NCBI RefSeq assembly: GCF_026341515.1
Contig: NZ_JAPEOK010000001.1
Span: 7,874,001-7,938,000, forward strand
Length of the DNA: 64,000 nucleotides
Reading direction: 5' to 3'
Source of the DNA: Streptomyces sp. NBC_00878
GTDB taxonomy: Bacteria; Actinomycetota; Actinomycetes; Streptomycetales; Streptomycetaceae
Of this stretch, positions 6,424 through 16,674 are shown one piece after another. Made by a program: the position numbers and the translations under genes. The first letter of the stretch is position 1, and the number at the start of each line of letters is the position of its first letter. The notes under the pieces are model-generated. The model was not told the origin of the DNA. It saw only the letters and a program-made list of their open reading frames with translations, and did no database searches.

Positions 6424-7998
6424 ATGACAACTCCCGCCGTTCCCGCCTCCCGCATACCGGAAGCCGTGCACCGGCGCCGCTGGGCGATCCTCGGTGTCCT
6501 GATGCTGAGCCTGCTGATCGTCGTCCTGGACAACTCGATCCTGAACGTCGCGATCAAGACCATCTCGACACCCGCTCCGACCGGCCTGGGGGCCACCCAG
6601 AGCGAACTCGAATGGGCCATCAACGCCTACACCCTCGTCTTCGCCGGTCTGCTCTTCTCCGCGGGCCTCCTCGGTGACCGGCTCGGGCGCAAGAAGGTCC
6701 TGCTCGGCGGACTCGTCGTCTTCGGTGTCGGCTCGGCGCTCGCGGCCTTCTCCGGCACACCGGTCCAGCTCATCGCGTTCCGCGCGGTGATGGGCCTCGG
6801 CGCCGCCTTTGTGATGCCGGCCACCCTCGCCGTCCTGATGAACGTCTTCGAGCGCGACGAACAGCCGAAGGCCATCGGCATCTGGGCGGGCGGCGTCGGC
6901 CTCGCCATCGCCATCGGGCCGATCACCGGCGGCGTACTCCTCGACCACTTCTGGTGGGGGTCCGTCTTCCTGATCAACGTGCCGATCGTCCTCATCGCGC
7001 TGGCCCTGATGGTCTGGCTCGTCCCCGACTCGCGCGACCCGAAGCCGGGCCGGATCGACCCGGTGGGCGTGGTGCTCTCCGTCATCGGGCTCGTCCTGCT
7101 CGTCTACGGCATCATCAAGGGCGGCCAGCTCGCCGACTTCACGGACCCCACGGTCCTCGCGACCATCGGCGCCGGACTCGCCGTACTCGTCGGCTTCGTG
7201 GTGTTCGAGAAGCGCAGCAGCCACCCGTCGATCGACGTCACGTACTTCAAGGACAAGGTCTTCTCGGCGGCGATCAGCGCCATCGCGCTCGTGTTCTTCG
7301 CGCTGATGGGCGTCACCTTCTTCGCCGTCTTCTACACCCAGAGCGTGCGCGGCTACTCGCCGCTGCAGACCGGCCTGCTGATGCTGCCGCTGGCCGTCGC
7401 GCAGCTCGTCTTCGCGCCGCGCGCCCGGCTGGTCGTGGACCGCTTCGGCAACAAGGCCACCACCACCGGCGGCATGCTCCTGATCGCCGCCATGCTGGCC
7501 GCGTTCGCCACGCTGGAGGCGGACACGCCGATCTGGATCCTGGAGGTCATCTTCTTCCTGATGGGCACCGGCATGGCGCACATCATGACGCCCACCAGCG
7601 TCGTGATCATGCAGGCCCTGCCCCGCGAGAAGGCCGGCTCCGCCTCCGCGCTCAGCAACACGTTCCGCCAGGTCGGCGGCGCCCTCGGCATCGCCGTACT
7701 CGGCTCGGTCCTGTCCGCCGCGTACCGCTCGGGCATCGAGGACAAGCTGCCCGCCGCCGCCCGGCACACCGCGGGCGAGTCGATCGAGGCGACGCTCGGC
7801 TTCGCGGCGAAGCTCGGCCCGCAGGGTGACGCCCTCGTCGGGCCGGCCCACGACGCCTTCCTGCACGCGATGCATGTCACCGCCCTGTGCGGCGCGGGCG
7901 TCGCCGTCGTCGGCGCGGTGGTCGTGGGTCTGTTCCTGCCGGGCCGTACGCCGGCCCCGGACGAGCGGGAGACGGAGTTGGTGAGCGCGGACCAATGA
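6424..7998 (+). CDS. MFS drug exporter, DHA2 (EmrB/QacA) family, 14 TM segments
   Basis: 524 residues. The first TM segment carries [13 protein letters not shown], the DHA2 motif D1. Motif A is [10 protein letters not shown] and motif C lies around [24 protein letters not shown]. About 14 hydrophobic segments are visible, typical of proton-coupled multidrug exporters. The ATG has no strong ribosome site, so the transcript may have a short leader. A palindromic operator overlaps its promoter and a TetR gene follows at 8201, the usual self-contained efflux/repressor pair. Substrate not predictable. Confidence 0.93.
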
Positions 7999-8056
7999 GC
8001 TAGGGCCAATTGAGCTCGGGCTGATGGAACTCGGGCTGATTGAACTCGGACCACTG
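7997..8056. repeat. 15-bp tandem repeat, four units
   Basis: Four degenerate units of the form GARCTCGGGCTGATK start at 7997, 8012, 8027 and 8042, directly after the MFS stop codon. They fill part of the gap before the TetR gene and are probably non-coding. Confidence 0.8.
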
Positions 8057-8200
8057 AGCGCGGGCGTTGAGCCGTACGGCGGGATTCGGCCCATCTGGGA
8101 CGGCGGTGATCCAGCGTCTCGTACAGCGGAGACAATCGACGGGGCGACCGGCCCGAGCGCGGGCCGGTGGAACAGCGGTACGGAAGGGCGGAGCGAGGAC

Positions 8201-8830
8201 GTGGGCGTCGCGGAGCGGGAGGCGGGGGCGGCAGGTGAGGGCGGGGCCGCCAGGGGGCGCCCACGCAGCGAGGCGGTGGAGCGCGCGATCATCGAGGGCG
8301 TCATGAGGCTGCTGGAGGAGGGCGTCCCGCTCGCGGACATCTCCATCGAGCGGATCGCCCGTATCGCCGGTGTGGGAAAGGCCACCATCTACCGGCGGTG
8401 GAGGGGCCGCGAGGAGCTCTTCTGCGACGTCCTGCGCACCGCGGAACAGCCCGACCCCGAGTTGCCCGGTGTCTCCATGCGCGAGGACCTGATCATCCTG
8501 CTCGAATCACTGCGTCAACGCGGCCTGGCCAACCGCTCGTCGGTGATCCTGCACAACGTTCACGCGCAGATGAAGAGCAGCCCCAAGCTGTGGAAGGTGT
8601 ACCACTCGGCCGTCATCGAACCGCGCCGCCGGATGACCCTCGACGTGCTGCGCCGCGGCCGGCGGAACGGCGAGATCCGCGCGGACATCGACCTCGAACT
8701 GATCAACGACATCTTCACCGGCCCCATGCTCGTACGCTCCGTCGTCCGCCCGGACGCCGAACTGGAGGAGGGCCTGTCCGAACTGATCGTCGATACGGTC
8801 CTGGAGGGGCTGCGGCCCGGCCGCCCCTGA
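8201..8830 (+). CDS. TetR/AcrR family transcriptional repressor
   Basis: 209 residues from GTG 8201; an in-frame ATG at 8024 would add 59 residues of repeat-derived low-complexity sequence and is rejected. The N-terminal helix-turn-helix reads ISIERIARIAGVGKATIYRRWRGREELFCDVL, a standard TetR domain. The C-terminal ligand domain is TetR_C-like (SSVILHNVHAQMKSSPKLWKVYHSAVIEPRRRMT). Same strand as and 200 bp downstream of the MFS exporter, so it is likely the local repressor acting at the 6381-6399 palindrome. The start codon is only moderately certain. Confidence 0.88.
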   Translation: MGVAEREAGAAGEGGAARGRPRSEAVERAIIEGVMRLLEEGVPLADISIERIARIAGVGKATIYRRWRGREELFCDVLRTAEQPDPELPGVSMREDLIILLESLRQRGLANRSSVILHNVHAQMKSSPKLWKVYHSAVIEPRRRMTLDVLRRGRRNGEIRADIDLELINDIFTGPMLVRSVVRPDAELEEGLSELIVDTVLEGLRPGRP

Positions 8831-8833
8831 GGT

Positions 8834-8857
8834 GCAGCTGAGCCATGGCTGAGCTGC
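8834..8857 (+). terminator. Imperfect hairpin after TetR gene
   Basis: An 11-bp inverted repeat with one mismatch (GCAGCTGAGCC / GGCTGAGCTGC) starts 3 bp after the TetR stop. It is a plausible terminator. The rest of 8858-9077 shows no gene. Confidence 0.5.
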
Positions 8858-9077
8858 GGTGTGTCGGTGGTTCCCGACTTGAGAGCGCCCAACGGCCCAG
8901 GGAATGTGAGCGGTTCGTCACAGAAAAGCTTCGTCATGCGCACAAACGGAACTCCCCACCTCGGCTCGCTCGTCCTCGTGCCCATACGGCCGTCATGCGA
9001 CGGCGAGAGTGAACGCGATCATCCCCTAGGGTCGTACCCGCGGGGATGGTGGCACGGCAGTTGGTGAGGCGACGCGT

Positions 9078-10115
9078 ATGGCGCAGGCGTACATGACGGA
9101 GACGGGCAGTGACGGCCAGGGGCCCGAACGCAGAGGATCCCGGCTTCGGCGCCTGCTCACCTCCCTCCGCAGAGACCGGGGCATCTGGCGGCGCGGCATC
9201 ATCCTCGCCGTGTGCGCCGTCCTGCTCGCCCTGGTCATGGGGCTGCACACGCAGATCCCGAACACCATCGGCAACCTCGGCAGCCTCACGGACACGTTCC
9301 TGCCCTGGGGAGCCATCCTCATCGCGGTGCTGCTCGTCCTCGCGCTGGTCCGCAGGTCCGCGACCGCGCTGATCGCTGTTCTGCTGCCGGCGATCGTCTG
9401 GCTCAACCTCTTCGGCGAACTGCTCACCGACCGGACCGGCAGCGGCGGAAACCTGACGGTCGCCACGCACAACGTCAACGCCGACAACCCGGACCCGGCC
9501 GGCACGGCCCGCGATGTGGCCGCGTCCGGCGCCGACGTGCTGGCCCTGGAGGAGCTGACGGACTCGGCGGTCCCGGTGTACGAGAAGGCCCTCGCCGCCG
9601 GGTTCAAGTACCACTCCGTGCAGGGCACCGTCGGCCTGTGGAGCAAGTACCCGCTGAGCGCGATCAGCCCCGTCGGTATCGAGCTCGGCTGGACGCGCGC
9701 GATGCGGGCGACGATCACCGCGCCCGAGGGGAAGCTCGCGGTCTACGTGGCCCATCTCCCGTCCGTACGGGTGAAGTTGGAGGCCGGGTTCACGGCGCGG
9801 CAGCGCGACAAGAGCGCCAACGCGCTCGGCGAGGCCATCGCCGACGAGAAGCTCCCGCAGGTCGCTCTGCTCGGCGACCTGAACGGCACGATGAACGACC
9901 GCGCGCTGACCGCCGTCACCTCGCAGCTGCGCTCCACGCAGGGTGCGGCGGGCAGCGGCTTCGGGTTCAGCTGGCCGGCGTCGTTCCCGATGGCGCGCAT
10001 CGACCAGATCCTGGTCAGGGGCGTCGAGCCGGTCACCTCCTGGACCCTCCCGGAGACGGGCAGTGACCATCTTCCGATCGCCGCCCGCGTGAAGCTGTCG
10101 GCAACCGACTCGTAA
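9078..10115 (+). CDS. Membrane-anchored endonuclease/exonuclease/phosphatase family protein
   Basis: 345 residues. About 35 basic N-terminal residues are followed by three hydrophobic segments (GIILAVCAVLLALVMGL, WGAILIAVLLVLALV, ATALIAVLLPAIVWLNLF). The EEP domain then begins at LTVATHNVNADNP. Metal and catalytic residues are present in order: N in HNVN, E in ALEELTD, D and N in LLGDLNGT, D in MARIDQIL and H in GSDHLPI. The domain probably faces the outside, as in the common Streptomyces anchored EEP proteins, where it would act as an extracellular phosphodiesterase or nuclease; the true substrate is unknown. The ATG has GAGG eight bases upstream. Confidence 0.88.
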   Translation: MAQAYMTETGSDGQGPERRGSRLRRLLTSLRRDRGIWRRGIILAVCAVLLALVMGLHTQIPNTIGNLGSLTDTFLPWGAILIAVLLVLALVRRSATALIAVLLPAIVWLNLFGELLTDRTGSGGNLTVATHNVNADNPDPAGTARDVAASGADVLALEELTDSAVPVYEKALAAGFKYHSVQGTVGLWSKYPLSAISPVGIELGWTRAMRATITAPEGKLAVYVAHLPSVRVKLEAGFTARQRDKSANALGEAIADEKLPQVALLGDLNGTMNDRALTAVTSQLRSTQGAAGSGFGFSWPASFPMARIDQILVRGVEPVTSWTLPETGSDHLPIAARVKLSATDS

Positions 10116-10141
10116 CCGTTCCTAGAGACTGAGTGGGAGTG

Positions 10142-10159
10142 AGTCCTGTTGCCAGGACT
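10142..10159 (-). other. Hairpin with GCAA tetraloop just after the tnpB-like gene (possible guide-RNA scaffold end)
   Basis: Read on the minus strand, AGUCCUG-GCAA-CAGGACU begins 5 nt after the stop of the TnpB-related gene: a 7-bp stem closed by a GNRA tetraloop. In TnpB systems the omega RNA ends in structured RNA at this place. The same hairpin could instead be a terminator for the convergent EEP gene. Function is inferred. Confidence 0.5.
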
Positions 10160-10164
10160 GTTGC

Positions 10165-11733
10165 TCAGCCGTGTGCCCCGAACGGTGTTGGGCACGCTGG
10201 TCTCCCGCGTTCGCTCCACGGTCCGGCGGCGCGCATCTGGTGCGTGGTCCGGGTGGGTGGGGGGCGGGTTTCCTCGCGCCGTCGGATATCCGGTCGGGCC
10301 TGGGCGGTCCGATGCCCCGCACCATCACTCTGGTGGTGCGGGGGCGGTGCCGTCCGTCGCCGGATCGGATGCCCGAGGGCGCGTCGCCCGATCGCGATGC
10401 TCGCTGCATCGTGCCGGGAAATCTTGCGAGTCGGTGTGGTGAGGGGTTTCTGCCAGTGCTGGGCACCCCAGCGGGAGGTGTACGCCGGGTCGACCGCGAC
10501 GACGGCGATGTCCTGCTCGGCCGCCATCGAGACGAGCCGGGCCTTGAGTTTGGCGGTGGGGAAGCGGGAGAGCAGGCGGCGGAAGCGTTTGTTGCGGCCA
10601 TGCCTCTCCCGGCTTGTGCCGTCGGTGAAGTCGAGGTCCTCGATAGCGATCGCGGCGGCCCCGCAACGGTGGGTGTAGTGCAGCAGACGACTCAGCGCGT
10701 GCCGGAGTTGCGCGTCCCGGTGTTCCGACGTGCCGGTCAGGTCGTAGAAGAAGCGCTGTGGTGCGCCGACCGGGTTGCCGTGCACGTCGAGGCGCCAGGC
10801 GGCGAGGTGGTCGTCGTTCATGTCCACCCCCACCACACCTTGGGCGAGGGCCGCCTCCAGCGGCAGCACCGGGGCGGCGGCGCGCTGCCAGGACGCACTG
10901 ATATACCAGCGTTCGCGTGCCGTGTCGTGGTGGATGCGGTAGGCCACCGCCCGGTTCGCGGTGATCCGGTCACGCCACTCCTGGCCCCGGTGCTGGAACC
11001 GTACGGTCGCGTCCAGTACATACCGTCCGTGCGGTGCGTTGGCAAGGTGGGCCAGCGGGGCAGGGAGCTTGAGGGAGAGCTGTCCGGTGTCGGTGATGCG
11101 GATGGTTTCGTTGCCGAAGCGTTTGCCGGACTCTCCGTCGGCGGCCAGGAACATCCGCTCCGCCTGCCACTGCTCCCGCCACTCCTGCTCACTCAGCCCG
11201 GCCGCCGCCAGGTGGTGGCGGGCGTGGGCGAGGCGCTTGCCGCCACGCACTACATGCACCCGGCCCGCCGCCCAGTCGCGCTCCACCACCGCCAGCCGGT
11301 CCTTCAATGCCTGCAGGCGGCGGGACTTGGCATGCCACTCGCCCCGGGAGCCATAGCCGCGCACCAGCCCCTCGCGCTTGTTCGCCCTGGCGCCCAGCGG
11401 CCGGGCCAGCCGCGCCTCAACCGTGACGATCTGCCCCCGCAGCCAGCCCAGATACGCGGCCTGCCCGCGCCGCGCCAGCGCCCACTGATCGTGGGTGGCC
11501 TTGGTGATACTGCCCGCCCACCGCGCCGACGACTTCCCCGTCAGCGCCCGCTTGCGCACCGCCCACCCAGCCGCATCGTGCGACAAACCCTGCCGGGACC
11601 GCTCCGCGAGATCACCCGCGGCCAGCGACCCGAGGAAGACACCGACCTCGGCCAGCACCGCCGCATCCGACTCGCTCACCCGCAGCCGGTCCCGGACAGC
11701 CACTCCGGCGGGACCGGGCACCACGAACGACAC
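10165..11733 (-). CDS. Stand-alone TnpB-related RuvC-like nuclease (IS200/IS605 accessory family)
   Basis: 522 residues from GTG 11733, which has GGGAG six bases upstream; TTG 11817 or ATG 11811 would extend it. The N-terminal half is helical and basic. The C-terminal RuvC-like nuclease shows its three acidic residues: D304 (VGVDMNDDH), E365 (AIAIEDLDF) and D442 (SRHDAASIAIGRRALG). Where TnpB has a CxxC zinc finger, this protein reads DPAYTSRWGAQHWQKP, without cysteines. That is typical of the TnpB-related accessory family in Streptomyces rather than of ISDra2 TnpB. No tnpA transposase is nearby. Canonical TnpB is an RNA-guided DNA endonuclease; whether this branch cuts DNA is unknown. It lies between the EEP and MFS genes. 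Confidence 0.85.
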   Translation of the reverse strand: MSFVVPGPAGVAVRDRLRVSESDAAVLAEVGVFLGSLAAGDLAERSRQGLSHDAAGWAVRKRALTGKSSARWAGSITKATHDQWALARRGQAAYLGWLRGQIVTVEARLARPLGARANKREGLVRGYGSRGEWHAKSRRLQALKDRLAVVERDWAAGRVHVVRGGKRLAHARHHLAAAGLSEQEWREQWQAERMFLAADGESGKRFGNETIRITDTGQLSLKLPAPLAHLANAPHGRYVLDATVRFQHRGQEWRDRITANRAVAYRIHHDTARERWYISASWQRAAAPVLPLEAALAQGVVGVDMNDDHLAAWRLDVHGNPVGAPQRFFYDLTGTSEHRDAQLRHALSRLLHYTHRCGAAAIAIEDLDFTDGTSRERHGRNKRFRRLLSRFPTAKLKARLVSMAAEQDIAVVAVDPAYTSRWGAQHWQKPLTTPTRKISRHDAASIAIGRRALGHPIRRRTAPPPHHQSDGAGHRTAQARPDIRRREETRPPPTRTTHQMRAAGPWSERGRPACPTPFGAHG

Positions 11734-12079
11734 CGCCAACTCCCGCAGGCCACCCACCCGTTCACCCCCGCCCGGCCGAAGATCCCCGTCACCGCAGTCA
11801 ACGAGCCCCATCCGCAAAGGTCACCCATTCGACCCAAGAACCTCCGTTCCCCTCCCGAGAACGGCAGCCCACAACACACCCATGACCGAGGAGACCCTCC
11901 CGGCACGCAGCAGACAACCGCATCCAGCCCCAGCGCTCACTCACACTCCCCAGAAGCCACTCCTGCTCAGTAAACCGGCAGCAGCTCCCAATCCCTGGGA
12001 ATACTGGGCCTGGGATGCTTTGTTCCGTGCGTGAACATAACGTGTACGGAATCCGGCTCACCCTGTGAAAGGCCCTCTC

Positions 12080-13297
12080 ATGCCCCTGGCCCTGCTCGCC
12101 CTCGCCGTGGGCGCCTTTGGCATCGGCACCACCGAGTTCGTGATGATGGGCCTGCTGCCCGATGTCGCGGACGACCTGAACATCTCGATACCCACCGCGG
12201 GACATCTGGTCTCGGCGTACGCGATCGGGGTCGTCATCGGCGCCCCGCTGCTCGCGGCCGTGACCGCGCGGATGTCCCGGCGCAAGGTTCTGATCGGTCT
12301 CATGGTGCTGTTCGTCATGGGCAACGCGCTCTCGGCGCTGGCGCCCGACTACTCGTGGCTGGTCGCCGCGCGCTTCCTGAGCGGGCTGCCGCACGGCGCG
12401 TTCTTCGGTGTGGGTGCCGTTGTCGCTACCGGCCTGGTCCCTGCGGAGCGTAAGGCGCGTGCGGTCTCGCTGATGTTCCTCGGTCTGACCATCGCGAATA
12501 TCGCGGGTGTGCCTGCGGCGACGTTGGTGGGCCAGAGCTTTGGGTGGCGTGCCACGTTCCTGGGCGTGAGTGTGATCGGCCTGGCGGCCATTGCGTCTCT
12601 GGCGCTGGTGCTGCCTCGCGACCACGCGCAGGCCCCGGTCGTTGGGCTGCGCGGCGAGCTGGCGGCGCTCAGGTCGCTTCCTGTGTGGCTGGCGCTCGGT
12701 ACGACGGTTGCGGGCTTCGGTGCGCTGTTCTCGGCGTACAGCTACATCACGCCGATGCTCACGGACGCCGCTGGGTACGCCGACTCCAGCGTGACGCTGT
12801 TGCTGGCGCTGTTCGGTGTGGGCGCGACGATCGGGAACCTGGTGGGCGGGCGGTTGGCCGACCGGTCGATGCGGGGGACGTTGTTCGGCGGGCTTGTGTC
12901 GCTGGTGGGTGTGCTGGTGCTCTTCCCGGTGCTGATGAGTACGGGGTGGAGTGCGGCGCTGGCTGTGGTGCTGCTTGGTACGGCTTCGTTCGTGACCAGT
13001 TCGCCGCTGCTGCTGATGGTGCTGGAGAAGGCGTCGTCGGCGCCGTCGTTGGCGTCCTCGGCGAACCAGGCGGCGTTCAACTTGGCCAACGCTGGTGGCG
13101 CCTGGGTCGGCGGCCTGGCTCTGGCGGGTGGCTTCGGTGTTACGTCTCCGGCTCTTGCGGGGGCGGGGCTTGGGGTGCTGGGGCTGGGTGTGGCGCTGGT
13201 CGCGTATGGCGTGGATCGGCGTCGGGTGGCGGTTCGTGGGGGGCGGGTTGTGGCTGGGTATGTTCCGGGGCATGCGGAGGTGCCGGTTCACCGCTGA
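12080..13297 (+). CDS. MFS exporter, DHA1 family (AraJ/Cmx-like, 12 TM)
   Basis: 405 residues from ATG 12080, with GAAAGG eight bases upstream; an in-frame GTG at 12065 is less likely. The N-terminus is LALAVGAFGIGTTEFVMMGLLPDVADDLNIS, the hallmark of the AraJ/chloramphenicol-efflux-like DHA1 subgroup. Further motifs are SAYAIGVVIGAPLLAA, RKVLIGLM, ARFLSGLPHGAFFGVGAVVA and SFGWRATF. About 12 TM segments. A proton antiporter for small hydrophobic compounds is likely; substrate unknown. Codon use becomes GTG/TTG-rich towards the 3' end. The upstream gap 11818-12079 has no gene and may contain the left end of the TnpB insertion. Confidence 0.92.
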   Translation: MPLALLALAVGAFGIGTTEFVMMGLLPDVADDLNISIPTAGHLVSAYAIGVVIGAPLLAAVTARMSRRKVLIGLMVLFVMGNALSALAPDYSWLVAARFLSGLPHGAFFGVGAVVATGLVPAERKARAVSLMFLGLTIANIAGVPAATLVGQSFGWRATFLGVSVIGLAAIASLALVLPRDHAQAPVVGLRGELAALRSLPVWLALGTTVAGFGALFSAYSYITPMLTDAAGYADSSVTLLLALFGVGATIGNLVGGRLADRSMRGTLFGGLVSLVGVLVLFPVLMSTGWSAALAVVLLGTASFVTSSPLLLMVLEKASSAPSLASSANQAAFNLANAGGAWVGGLALAGGFGVTSPALAGAGLGVLGLGVALVAYGVDRRRVAVRGGRVVAGYVPGHAEVPVHR

Positions 13298-13332
13298 ACT
13301 GCTGCGGTGGTTGTCGGGTGCGGGTGGGTGGG

Positions 13333-13534
13333 GGCTGGTCGCGCCGTTCCTCGCGCCCCTGGGGTTGGTGGTGGGGCGGGGCCGCGCCGGGACATCCGAG
13401 CTTGCTCTGAAGGAAGTCGGGTGGGCCGGGATGCGCGGCGCTCGGACGTCCCGGCACGTCCCCTCACGTCCGGGGAGTGGCTGCTGGTCCGGTGGGGGTG
13501 TGGTCTCCAGGGGCGCGGGGAACTGCGCGACCGG
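13333..13534. mobile_element. MITE-like palindromic element
   Basis: Outer inverted repeats: GCTGGTCGCGCCGTTCCTCG at the left (13333-13361) and, inverted, CCGGTCGCGCAGTTCCCCGC at the right (13507-13534). They match over ~28 bp with three mismatches. An inner 16-bp inverted pair (13386-13401 / 13440-13455, one mismatch) is nested inside. It lies in the 319-bp gap between the MFS gene and the small membrane protein, where I see no gene. Related outer-repeat sequences recur at 25343, 31509 and 44672. Confidence 0.7.
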
Positions 13535-13616
13535 ACCCCGTTCGCCGTCAGTCGACCGACGTGCGAAACCAACCCCTCGCGAAGTCGTCCTGACGACAGA
13601 CCTCGCCTCCACGCGC

Positions 13617-13862
13617 ATGTACGTGAGCGAAGCGCTGGAGCGTCCGGGCCTGGTTCCGGTGGCCCACTCCGCGCACGCCGCGAGCAGCGCGGTCGCTCTG
13701 TGCGGCATCCTCGTCTGCATGGTGGCATTCACCCTCACCGCACGCCGGTACGCGCCCCTCGCCCGCTTCGGCCCCGCCCTCGTGGCACTCGAACTGGCCG
13801 TCTCGCTCGGGCATACCACGACCCCCGGGGTACTTCTTGCTTCCCGAGACGTTCGCCCATGA
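13617..13862 (+). CDS. Small membrane protein coupled to the hydrolase gene
   Basis: 81 residues from ATG 13617 (MYVSEALERPGLVPVAHSAHA). Two hydrophobic stretches (AASSAVALCGILVCMVAFTL and FGPALVALELAVSL) suggest an inner-membrane protein. Its TGA overlaps the ATG of the following hydrolase (ATGA at 13859-13862), which is the best evidence that it is translated. The start is uncertain because the frame stays open upstream into repeat DNA. No family recognised. Confidence 0.6.
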   Translation: MYVSEALERPGLVPVAHSAHAASSAVALCGILVCMVAFTLTARRYAPLARFGPALVALELAVSLGHTTTPGVLLASRDVRP

Positions 13863-14728
13863 CCTTCGTACGTCTCTCCGGAGTCCCTCATCACATCCGC
13901 GTCGACGGGAACGGGCCCGTCTGCGTCCTCAGCGTCGGTCTGGGGATGGCGTGGTTCGACTGGGATCCCGTCGTTCCACTTCTCGCCCCCTACCGCACCG
14001 TCGTCCGCTTCGACCGGCCCGGGCTCGGGCTCAGTGGCCACACGCGCGCGTGGCCCACGCTCGCCGGTGAGGCGGAGCGCATCGCGCGCGTGCTCGACGC
14101 CGTCGGGGGCGGTGCGCCCGCGACCGTGGTGGGGCACTCGCTCGCCGGGTTTCACTGCGAGGCATTTGCCCGGTTGTTTCCGGAGCGGACGGCGGGGCTT
14201 GTGCTCGTCGACTCCAGTGTTGAAGAGGTGCCGCTGGGCAGGAGGACTCCCGAGTTCGCGGACGCTTGCACGCGCGCGTGCGGCACGTTGCTGTCCGTCG
14301 CGGGTGTGCCGCGCCTTCTGGGGCCCTTCCTGCGGCGCGCCGCGGTTCGCGTCGGGCGGCACAGTGGTGGTGATCCGGCCCCGGACGACCTTGTCCGTCG
14401 TGCCTACTCCACCAGCCGTTTTCTGCACGCCGTCCTCGCCGAGAACGCTCGCTATCGGGACCAGGCCGTCGAACTGGCCGCCCTGAGGGGACGGGTTCCG
14501 CTCCACGCGCCCGTGACCGTGCTTGCCGCGTACGAGGGTGGCTCTCGGCGGTGGCTCGACCGGCAGCGCGTACTCGCGGAGGGGCTTGGTGGGGTGTTGC
14601 GTGTGTCCGCGCCCGCCGGTCATCTTGTGATGCTCGACCGGCCCCAGGACGTCGCGGACGCGATTCTGGAGACGCCCGTGCGCCCGTCCCTCGCCGATGG
14701 GGACGAGGGGCGGGCGCAGGACACATAG
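13859..14728 (+). CDS. Alpha/beta hydrolase
   Basis: 289 residues. The N-terminus MTFVRLSGVPHHIRVDGNGPVCVLSVGLGM holds the oxyanion region. The strand-turn RTVVRFDRPGLGLSG follows, then the nucleophile elbow VGHSLAG (Ser), the strand GLVLVDSS, and a C-terminal histidine in APAGHLVMLDRPQDVADAI. The catalytic triad is complete. Family members hydrolyse esters, epoxides or lactones; substrate not predictable. The start overlaps the stop of the small membrane protein gene, so the two form an operon. The gene ends 8 bp from the convergent S53 protease gene. Confidence 0.9.
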   Translation: MTFVRLSGVPHHIRVDGNGPVCVLSVGLGMAWFDWDPVVPLLAPYRTVVRFDRPGLGLSGHTRAWPTLAGEAERIARVLDAVGGGAPATVVGHSLAGFHCEAFARLFPERTAGLVLVDSSVEEVPLGRRTPEFADACTRACGTLLSVAGVPRLLGPFLRRAAVRVGRHSGGDPAPDDLVRRAYSTSRFLHAVLAENARYRDQAVELAALRGRVPLHAPVTVLAAYEGGSRRWLDRQRVLAEGLGGVLRVSAPAGHLVMLDRPQDVADAILETPVRPSLADGDEGRAQDT

Positions 14729-14736
14729 AGCGGGCG

Positions 14737-16674
14737 TCAGCGGTGGTATGACGTCACATAGCCGGGGGCCGGTGAACCCACCCCGGTGACGTCGTCGTAT
14801 CCCCGTACCGCCTTCAGCGAGCTGTCCTTGCCGAGGCTGCGGACGGAGGTAAGGAGGCCCTCCGACGCGTCGAACGCGTTGACGAAGTCGACGCGCGCCA
14901 CCGCTAGGTCGCGGCCCGTCGGGTGGTCCGTGACGTCGTGGTAGAGCCCTGAGCCGTACCGGTCGTAGATCGCCGGGTTGGCGAAACCGATCGGGTGGCC
15001 GCCGCGCGCCTGCTGGGCGAGTGCCTGGATGCCCGCGATGACCGGCGAGGCTAGCGAGGTGCCGCCCAGGCGGTACTCGTCGTACTTCTGCGTTCCGTCC
15101 GGGAAGGTCTGCGTCTGGCCGACCAGGAACCCGGTGTTGGGGTCGGCTATCGCGGCGATGTCCGGCACCGTTCGCATGGCTTTTTGGCCGCGGGCCTTCG
15201 CGAGCGCGGAGGGGACCACATCTCGTTGGTAGAACGGCTGCTTCACCGTTGCGCTGGTGCCGCCGCCCGCGCCGGAGGTGTACGCGCCCGGGAAGTCCGT
15301 CCAGGTCTTGCCGTCGTCCGAGAGATTGGCCTTGAACGTGCCCCAGCCGGTCTCCCACTTGTACGTGTCGCCCTTGCCGACGGCCAGCGAGGTGCCGCCC
15401 ACCGTCGTCACCCACGCCGAGTTGGCCGGGGTGTCGACCTGCTTCGTACCGGTGTTCGCGACCTCGTCGCCGTTGTCGCCGGACGAGAAGTAGAAGCCGA
15501 TGCCCTCGATCGCGCCCAGCTGGAAGACCTGGTCGTAGGCGGCGGCGAGGTCCGGCGTCTGGTTGGCCTCGATGTCGCCCCACGAGTTGGAGACGATGTC
15601 GGCCAGGTGCCCGTCGACGATCTTGCCGAGCGAGTCGAGCAGATCGTCGTCGTAGCAGGACTCGGCGCCCACGTAGACGATGTTCGACGCGGGCGCGACG
15701 GCGTGCACGGCCTCGACGTCGAGGGTCTCCTCGCCGTACCAGCCCGCCGCCCCGCACTCCTCGGTCCGCGTGTACTGGGTCGGCAGCACCTGGGTCAACT
15801 GCCCGCCGCCGTACGCCGCGTCACCGTTCCTCGCCGCGTACGTGGCCGCGTCCGCCGCGATGGTCGGCGAGGCGTACGCGTCCGTGATCGCCACGGTCAC
15901 GCCCTTGCCGGTCGCCCCGCCCGCCCCGTACGCGGCCCGCAGCTGCTTGCCCGTGTAGCCCTTCACGGCGTACGGGATCTTCGTGCCGTATGCCTCCGGG
16001 AGCGTCGTCGCGGTCTTCGAGCCGTAGTACGAGGAGAACGGACCGGCGTTGTGGAACACGGCGTCCGGCGGCGGCAGTGTGTCGGCGTGGTTCGCCTTGT
16101 GCGGGGCGTTGTCCAGGCCGGTGACCGTGAGGACGGCGCCGTTCAGGGCGGCGGGCGCCGAGGCGGTCTTGGAGGGTGCCCGGTATGTCTTCTTGCCCTT
16201 GGTGTAGTTGTGCAGCTGGGTGCCGAACGCCTTCTCCGCGTCGGCCACTTCGCCCGTCACCGAGAGGTAGTGGCGTGTGGTGTCGGTGACGGTCAGGCCC
16301 GCCGACTTCAACCAGGCGGTCACGTGGGCCACTTGGGACTTCGTGGCGCCGAAGCGGGCCTCGGCCTGCGCCGCGCTCAGGTACTTCCCGTACGAGGGTG
16401 ACGACGGGTCGGAGACGGCCTTGGCGTAGGCGCTCAGGCCCGCCGCGTCCCGGCCGGCGAGATAGACGCGGGCCGAGACCCGGGAGCCGTTCGCCGTGGC
16501 TCCCTTGTCCGCCTGGGCGGTGGCCCAGAGGGGCTTGGTGCCCTGGAGTGTTTCCCGGCCCGCCGGGTCGGAGGCGTGGGCCGCGGGTATGCCTAGCGCC
16601 AGCGCGCCGGCAAGCAGAGGCAGTGTCGCCGCCATGCTCACACCGGCGCGTACCGCGGCACGGTTGGATCTCAT
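14737..16674 (-). CDS. Secreted S53 (sedolisin/kumamolisin-like) pro-protease
   Basis: 645 residues from ATG 16674, preceded by AGGGGG. The signal peptide ends near LGIPAAHA. It is followed by a Pro-kumamolisin activation domain (~40-190: RVYLAGRDAAGLSAYAKAVSDPSSPSYGKYL; AWLKSAGLTVTDTTRHYLSVTG) and the S53 catalytic domain. Catalytic E315 and D319 are in YGEETLDVEAV, the oxyanion Asp is probably in SNSWGD, and Ser540 is in the GGTSLASP motif. Predicted to be an extracellular serine-carboxyl endopeptidase, self-activating at acid pH, acting in nutrient supply. Length is normal for the family. Confidence 0.95.
   Translation of the reverse strand: MRSNRAAVRAGVSMAATLPLLAGALALGIPAAHASDPAGRETLQGTKPLWATAQADKGATANGSRVSARVYLAGRDAAGLSAYAKAVSDPSSPSYGKYLSAAQAEARFGATKSQVAHVTAWLKSAGLTVTDTTRHYLSVTGEVADAEKAFGTQLHNYTKGKKTYRAPSKTASAPAALNGAVLTVTGLDNAPHKANHADTLPPPDAVFHNAGPFSSYYGSKTATTLPEAYGTKIPYAVKGYTGKQLRAAYGAGGATGKGVTVAITDAYASPTIAADAATYAARNGDAAYGGGQLTQVLPTQYTRTEECGAAGWYGEETLDVEAVHAVAPASNIVYVGAESCYDDDLLDSLGKIVDGHLADIVSNSWGDIEANQTPDLAAAYDQVFQLGAIEGIGFYFSSGDNGDEVANTGTKQVDTPANSAWVTTVGGTSLAVGKGDTYKWETGWGTFKANLSDDGKTWTDFPGAYTSGAGGGTSATVKQPFYQRDVVPSALAKARGQKAMRTVPDIAAIADPNTGFLVGQTQTFPDGTQKYDEYRLGGTSLASPVIAGIQALAQQARGGHPIGFANPAIYDRYGSGLYHDVTDHPTGRDLAVARVDFVNAFDASEGLLTSVRSLGKDSSLKAVRGYDDVTGVGSPAPGYVTSYHR

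Follow-up and report, generated by a model that had tools for sequence, protein, structure and literature searches.

Between two host genes of Streptomyces sp. NBC_00878 lies a minus-strand gene for a relative of TnpB. A note made earlier from the letters of this DNA had described it as a stand-alone RuvC nuclease gene with a GNRA hairpin right after its stop codon, and had suggested that it might belong to a domesticated or distinct RNA-guided system. The locus raises the question of whether the gene serves the host or a mobile element, and what the hairpin is. We analyzed the surrounding stretch of 64,000 nucleotides, called the window below; plain coordinates count from its first letter.

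The element, its ends and its empty site

The limits of the element and the neighbouring host genes are as follows.

9078..10115, plus strand: host gene for an endonuclease/exonuclease/phosphatase (EEP) family protein (PF03372)
12065..13297, plus strand: host gene for an MFS transporter (PF07690)
10116..11995, minus strand: IS607-type TnpB-only element, GG core counted at both ends (from relatives' empty sites and end alignments)
11976..11995, minus strand: left end, core GG (11995-11994) plus GATTGGGAGCTGCTGCCG (from the left-end alignment)
10115..10121, minus strand: right end and pseudoknot 3' strand, GAACGGU; core GG at 10117-10116; T 10115 is host DNA

We searched for the 3' end of the EEP gene in 60 relatives and fetched the loci of the best 19. 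The joined EEP-MFS flanks align without the element in 12 of these, and the right end of the element was found in none of the 19, all of which hold the EEP gene. The comparison with relatives lacking the insertion, as the earlier note had proposed, fixed both ends. The plus strand of a relative has TCGTAACC-TCGGGGAATACTGGG here; in the window, TCGTAACC is followed by the element and then by TGGGAATACTGGG. Empty sites vary among relatives by a few bases at the junction itself. From this reading of the window against the empty sites we place the crossover at CC (GG on the element strand), with the next base belonging to host DNA. That base, T 10115, is part of the TAA that ends the EEP gene, and the relatives have it too. 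The gene had been assigned the span 10120 to 11817; a minus-strand frame is indeed open from 10165 to 11817, but 10120 falls inside the right end, and the boundary is the GG at 10117-10116.

Among 89 related loci, 84 carry a right end with at most one mismatch from TAGGAACGGT, two carry one with two mismatches and three have none. In the alignment of these 84 ends, a set defined so that strongly altered ends are not among them and in which L009 overlaps L002, CGGT is invariant (84/84) and conservation stops there, the sequence being variable from the next base onward. The right-flanking base is thus T in 84 of 84. Left ends within three mismatches of a consensus were found at 44 of the 89 loci, with G at the two core positions in 38 and 42 of the 44 and no conserved base farther out. 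Nothing beyond GG was found when these 44 left flanks were inspected for a TAM preference. In the right end AC stands before GG; none of the 44 left flanks, a sample too small for a conclusion, has this dinucleotide there. The right end itself puts GG-T directly before the guide, just as in the empty target, which poses a puzzle of self-targeting.

The description of the gene as stand-alone did not survive a search of its own genome, which holds seven full copies, counting that of the window, and two partial matches. The proteins of the other copies are 62-91% identical to that of the window, and three copies (L005, L006 and L007) have an IS607 transposase gene directly upstream. This TnpA scores 191.5 bits with the IS607 transposase model NF033518 (cut-off 110) and has a Resolvase domain too. 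Two of the TnpA-bearing copies, L006 and L007, share tnpB genes that are 99.93% identical at two different sites; their comparison yields the ends GGGGTAGGAACTG... and ...TAGGAACGGT, of which GGGGTAGGAACTG is similar to the left end in the window. TnpA was seen at 4 of the 89 loci, three of them in the own genome, a count to be read with nine fetched loci that start within 350 nt of the tnpB match, where TnpA is not visible. The own genome has four TnpA genes of that kind, and a search in 12 other genomes gave a match in nine (some distant or partial) and none in three. Elsewhere in the own genome, at G000:C1 7041794-7043616 (L113, L118), lies a different IS607-type element with a TnpA 54% identical beside a zinc-finger TnpB.

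With respect to class, the window set against the empty sites shows a GG-dinucleotide crossover without a longer target-site duplication, as in IS607 elements. The serine-recombinase TnpA of IS607 is not encoded in the element, as the earlier note had also seen, and we therefore regard it as a TnpB-only derivative and not as an autonomous IS607 element. IS200/IS605 elements insert 3' of a short motif and have a variable right-flanking base; the constant T does not fit that family. The arrangement is that of the IS1341 group, in which, according to the part of the source used here (PMC9956272), tnpB stands alone between two recognisable ends.

A TnpB branch without a zinc finger

The open reading frame and its catalytic codons are located as follows.

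10165..11817, minus strand: tnpB ORF, 550 aa, zinc-finger-less, RuvC-I motif D-M-N (TTG start as listed)
10822..10824, minus strand: codon of RuvC catalytic D332 (42 of 42 aligned members)
10639..10641, minus strand: codon of RuvC catalytic E393, canonical position (42 of 42)
10408..10410, minus strand: codon of RuvC catalytic D470 (40 of 42)

These are the residues that had been numbered D304, E365 and D442, an intact triad as claimed; the older numbers fit a start 28 codons further in, and the true translation start may lie further in than the TTG. A stretch like TTCTTGGGTCGAATGGGTGACCTTTGCGGA at about 11811-11842 (minus strand), alike in many loci by eye, overlaps the TTG start and is possibly a promoter or operator. 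The D-E-D triad with a canonical Glu is that of TnpB. Fanzor and pro-Fanzor proteins have DPG in RuvC-I and a shifted Glu; all 42 aligned members of the branch have D-[MTA]-N and the canonical Glu. The third Asp is lost in L011 (H) and L072 (A), where the frame is otherwise open. The missing zinc-finger cysteines proved to be a trait of the whole branch: a CxxC pair at the expected place occurs in 0 of 42 aligned members, and a single Cys within residues 438-486 in four rows. The CxxC zinc-finger pattern is present in 9 of the 14 other TnpB-model loci of the own genome (two of these loci are the same gene).

The protein matches the NCBIfam model guided_TnpB (NF040570) with 45 bits (E 8.6e-12), short of its naming cut-off of 100 bits; hence we speak of a TnpB branch and not of a member by that model. 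The Pfam match is below cut-off, Pfam and PADLOC give weak TnpB/Cas12f matches only, and a search of PDB sequences gave five weak matches (best E 0.007). The predicted fold is Cas12/TnpB-like across residues about 35-455, with low Foldseek TM-scores (top match 0.29 by query length), and residues 447-550, including the third catalytic Asp, are not confidently modelled.

Of 7,996 candidates scored in a protein search, 5,287 reached E <= 0.001; 120 of the proteins were listed, and where a source name was given it was mostly transposase, IS605 OrfB or TnpB-related protein. Scanning genome contigs gave 389 relatives, and the best 80, which were fetched, comprise 75 from Streptomyces, four from Actinomadura and one from Nocardiopsis. 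Plasmids contributed five Streptomyces records (73-76%), and phages one weak match, to Thermus phage phiLo (33% over 29% of the protein). dN/dS was 0.20-0.38 across 11 pairs and 0.22 between the window copy and the nearest copy in its own genome, values that point to purifying selection on the branch protein. Judged from sequence, this is a large, mainly Streptomyces TnpB lineage that lacks the zinc finger and has retained the RuvC triad, and in that sense the branch is distinct, as had been proposed.

A predicted RNA scaffold that overlaps the coding sequence

The predicted guide-RNA scaffold has the following parts.

10115..10377, minus strand: reRNA (omega RNA) scaffold, 5' limit approximate, within the ORF in most relatives (from synonymous-site constraint, covariation and fold)
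10315..10343, minus strand: coding-embedded hairpin E, 9-bp arms, loop ACCAGAGTGAT (from pairing against shuffles)
10232..10244, minus strand: stem D, CGCA/UGCG (from covariation)
10173..10195, minus strand: stem A, GUGCCC/GGGCAC, with the pseudoknot strand in its loop (from compensatory changes)
10180..10186, minus strand: pseudoknot 5' strand ACCGUUC, pairing with 10121-10115
10127..10170, minus strand: stem C, GGCUGAG (10170-10164) with CUCAGUC (10133-10127), enclosing stem B (83.5% of cells paired)
10142..10159, minus strand: stem B, the GNRA hairpin of the earlier note (in both scaffold types)
10122..10124, minus strand: TAG that ends the ORF of most relatives, out of frame in the window copy (55 of 75 loci)

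Counting the window, 75 loci have a right end together with a frame open over 483 codons or more; at 55 of these the ORF passes through the scaffold and stops at the TAG inside TAGGAACGGT. Compared with L002, L003, L010 and L021, the window copy differs slightly in length upstream of its last ~30 codons, and its frame ends sooner, at TGA 10167-10165. The hairpin AGTCCTG-GCAA-CAGGACT lies at 10159-10142, 5 nt past this TGA, just as first described, but its place right after a stop codon is a peculiarity of the window's frame-shifted copy; intact copies exist.

The shift could indicate a decaying copy of the same element, with a tnpB that has ceased to function and a relic reRNA; truncation or loss of the third Asp is seen in some of the other copies. 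However, the shift falls after all catalytic residues, in the poorly modelled tail that is partly constrained at synonymous sites, the scaffold is complete, and the dN/dS against the nearest own-genome copy also speaks against decay, which we consider unlikely.

Third-base differences at fourfold sites, counted per 20 codons across 33 loci, were 0.22-0.44 in codons 21-480, 0.12 and 0.10 in codons 481-520, 0.29 at 521-540 and 0.16 at 541-560, with synonymous-site constraint beginning at codon ~481. The whole scaffold stretch folds with -118.4 kcal/mol (z -2.87). Its strongest structure, hairpin E, lies upstream inside the ORF: 83 of 84 loci gave 59 distinct versions, in which 94.4% of cells are paired, compared with a mean of 64.7% and a maximum of 71.9% in 1,000 shuffles, and one pair shows all four Watson-Crick types.

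We scored stems D, A, C and B together with the pseudoknot on 70 aligned right ends. In this structure 90.6% of cells pair, and 154 cells show double changes versus 48.7 in shuffles, none of 500 shuffles being as high; stems B and C and the pseudoknot were scored on a structure that we had named ourselves, and that part leans on our reading. RNAalifold, given the 70-row alignment, proposed stems A and D and two other pairs, and not stems B and C. Compensatory changes are many in stem A and in one pair of stem D. The pseudoknot, in which the host T pairs with the first A of ACCGUUC, is nearly invariant (98.2% of cells paired), its covariation support being one double change (L079). Stem B is paired in 81-84% in the mixed alignment (closing pair 97%), less well than the neighbouring stems, and is kept up mainly through G-U changes. 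An alternative form, GTGGGTC-CAA-GACTCAC, occurs at 17 loci, where the structure pairs in 88.2% of cells; in 18 of 89 loci, of which L009 overlaps L002, the element ends with an exact-stem hairpin of the stem-B kind, a recurrence that, like the covariation of the wider scaffold, exceeds chance. The covariation that had been suggested as a check of the hairpin is found in the wider structure, and in the hairpin itself mainly as G-U changes. TnpB elements are expected to have a reRNA at the right end that runs into host DNA, and the conserved ends and the covariation argue for a conserved right-end scaffold of this kind, in which stems covary and the host T closes a pseudoknot.

A 7-bp stem rich in GC and close to the ends of two genes might also merely terminate transcription, either of tnpB or of the EEP gene. 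No T-run follows the hairpin, however, the ORF passes through the region in most relatives, and the hairpin belongs to a larger covarying structure. Because the right end is missing from the relatives' loci with the EEP gene (19/19), we rejected an EEP terminator, the reading that the earlier note had tied to a hairpin present in strains without the gene, and give the terminator explanation as a whole practically no credence.

In Streptomyces sp. V4I2 three TnpB copies each contain an IS110-type element (L012 4668-6017, L019 4638-5989, L026 4701-6052), inserted at the same point just past the reRNA hairpin; NF033542 scores above cut-off in L012, the one tested. Here one RNA-guided system, an IS110-type transposase, seems to have the guide scaffold of a second one as its target.

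Predicted guides and scaffold units without TnpB

The predicted guide and the scaffold units without TnpB are listed here.

10095..10114, minus strand: first 20 nt of the predicted guide, running antisense to the EEP gene at its 3' end (variable from this base in 84 right ends; putative function)
G000:C1 5292262, 5299837, 7630595 and 1728211: TnpB-less units of the own genome (L149, L172, L176 and L164)
L150 and L151: further units that carry this reRNA scaffold without TnpB and differ in guide

As anticipated earlier, if the 3' end of this TnpB relative encodes an RNA scaffold, the guide would read from 10114 downwards into the 3' end of the EEP gene. When GGT plus 16 bases of this guide was searched in the own genome with up to three mismatches, we obtained six matches, itself and five with three mismatches, compared with four for the reversed-pattern control; no second match with fewer than three mismatches was found there.

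We searched 41 genomes with a model of the scaffold, under filtering at which weak matches are lost, and obtained hits in 8 of them, at 35 places. By comparison of coordinates, 24 of them adjoin a TnpB match of this branch and 11 do not, a count in which contig ends in draft genomes could hide neighbours; four of the 11 are in the own genome, two in a genome with no branch match at E <= 1e-10 and five elsewhere; other Streptomyces have units of this kind as well. Three of the four own-genome units were inspected and contain no TnpB frame. Six units whose right end was read all show GAACGGT followed by differing DNA, and most units have in common an upstream block like TTAGCTCGATCGTGTGATGGTCGG. 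An IS607-like left end was seen in two units (one by eye), 530 nt upstream in the L141/L176 unit. The guide of one unit matched itself and one place with three mismatches (control 1), that of another matched itself, one place with two mismatches and fifteen with three (control 7).

The TnpB-less scaffold copies may be trans-acting guides, and the units are possibly working guides, miniature elements or relics. More speculatively, and in our view less likely than not, the branch might run a multi-guide system in trans. The TnpB-less units could then be the smallest selfish elements of this kind, consisting of two ends and a guide RNA, which depend on a common IS607 TnpA for movement and on a common zinc-finger-less TnpB for staying in place.

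The guides also bear on domestication, i.e. on a fixed host role as an RNA-guided regulator or defence system of the TldR-like or Cas12-like kind. Such a role would agree with the purifying selection and with an element that has no TnpA; in a midpoint-rooted tree, a supported branch has on one side 23 rows in which TnpA is not in view, the window among them (one row, L025, has no upstream DNA). Against it stand the intact RuvC triad, the absence of the insertion from the fetched relatives, the variable guides, a window guide that has no other close match in its own genome, and the lack of a CRISPR-like repeat array within 7000-15000. We rejected domestication for lack of a conserved site or second target and regard it as very improbable. 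This half of the earlier proposal was not supported: the ends, the GG crossover, the empty sites, the several copies and the IS607 TnpA-bearing sisters, which have ends of a like kind in the same genome, show a mobile element.

Relation to described systems and proposed mechanism

The closest described system is the TnpB of ISXfa1 (IS607). In the part of PMC10711439 on which we draw, ISXfa1 has a GG crossover, a fixed right-flanking base that is counted in the scaffold, and a pseudoknot that is required, and its TAM test depleted a GGG motif. The window element shares the GG crossover, the fixed right-flanking host base within the scaffold, and stem-loops with a pseudoknot. In contrast to ISXfa1, its fixed base is T, its TAM is a predicted one, and its scaffold is mostly coding in relatives. 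It also differs in having D-x-N in RuvC-I and no zinc finger; the same portion of that source gives D-hydrophobic-G as typical of RuvC-I in TnpB and places a CxxC...CxxC zinc finger between RuvC-II and RuvC-III in many, not all, TnpBs.

The TnpB of ISFba1 (IS607), with its RAGATH-18 reRNA, has 387 aa, a TAM of AGGAG and an RNA that begins 13 nt past the gene, according to the passages used from PMC11061315. Unlike it, the TnpB of the window has 550 aa, and Rfam gave no relevant family in the window region or in 8 loci. The account of the IS1341 group in the sections used of PMC9956272 leaves the origin of that group open, whereas here a tie to IS607 is provided by the TnpA-bearing sisters with similar ends. 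Cas12f proteins (AsCas12f, 8j12, 8dzj) differ from our case, which has the ends of a mobile element and, within 7000-15000, only one two-copy, 71% repeat, not the array expected of type V (Cas12f). A literature search, with subscription papers largely outside it, returned no title or abstract on this Streptomyces branch.

Very probably, then, the locus is an IS1341-type element with TnpB only, derived from an actinobacterial lineage of the IS607 type; its RNA-guided nuclease would cut the element's own empty site and so keep the element in place. An IS607 serine transposase acting in trans would mobilise the element in circular form, with crossovers at GG. Towards its 3' end the tnpB transcript would fold into the reRNA scaffold, made up of hairpin E, stems D, A, C and B and the pseudoknot closed by the host T after GG, and this RNA would continue into host DNA as the guide. 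TnpB bound to the reRNA would cut an empty donor or sister site at GG-T (the predicted TAM contains this GG) followed by the guide sequence, and repair from an intact copy would restore the element. As far as can be read from the DNA, the element would work like an IS607 TnpB element.

A branch that has no zinc finger next to the active site offers a natural case for asking what the zinc finger does, and a covarying guide-RNA hairpin inside coding sequence tests how one stretch of DNA serves as both protein and guide scaffold. Directly testable predictions for the TAM and the scaffold boundary follow from the exact ends, from the empty site and from the place of the host T in the pseudoknot. 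Finally, the branch tests whether TnpB can serve guide-only elements in trans.
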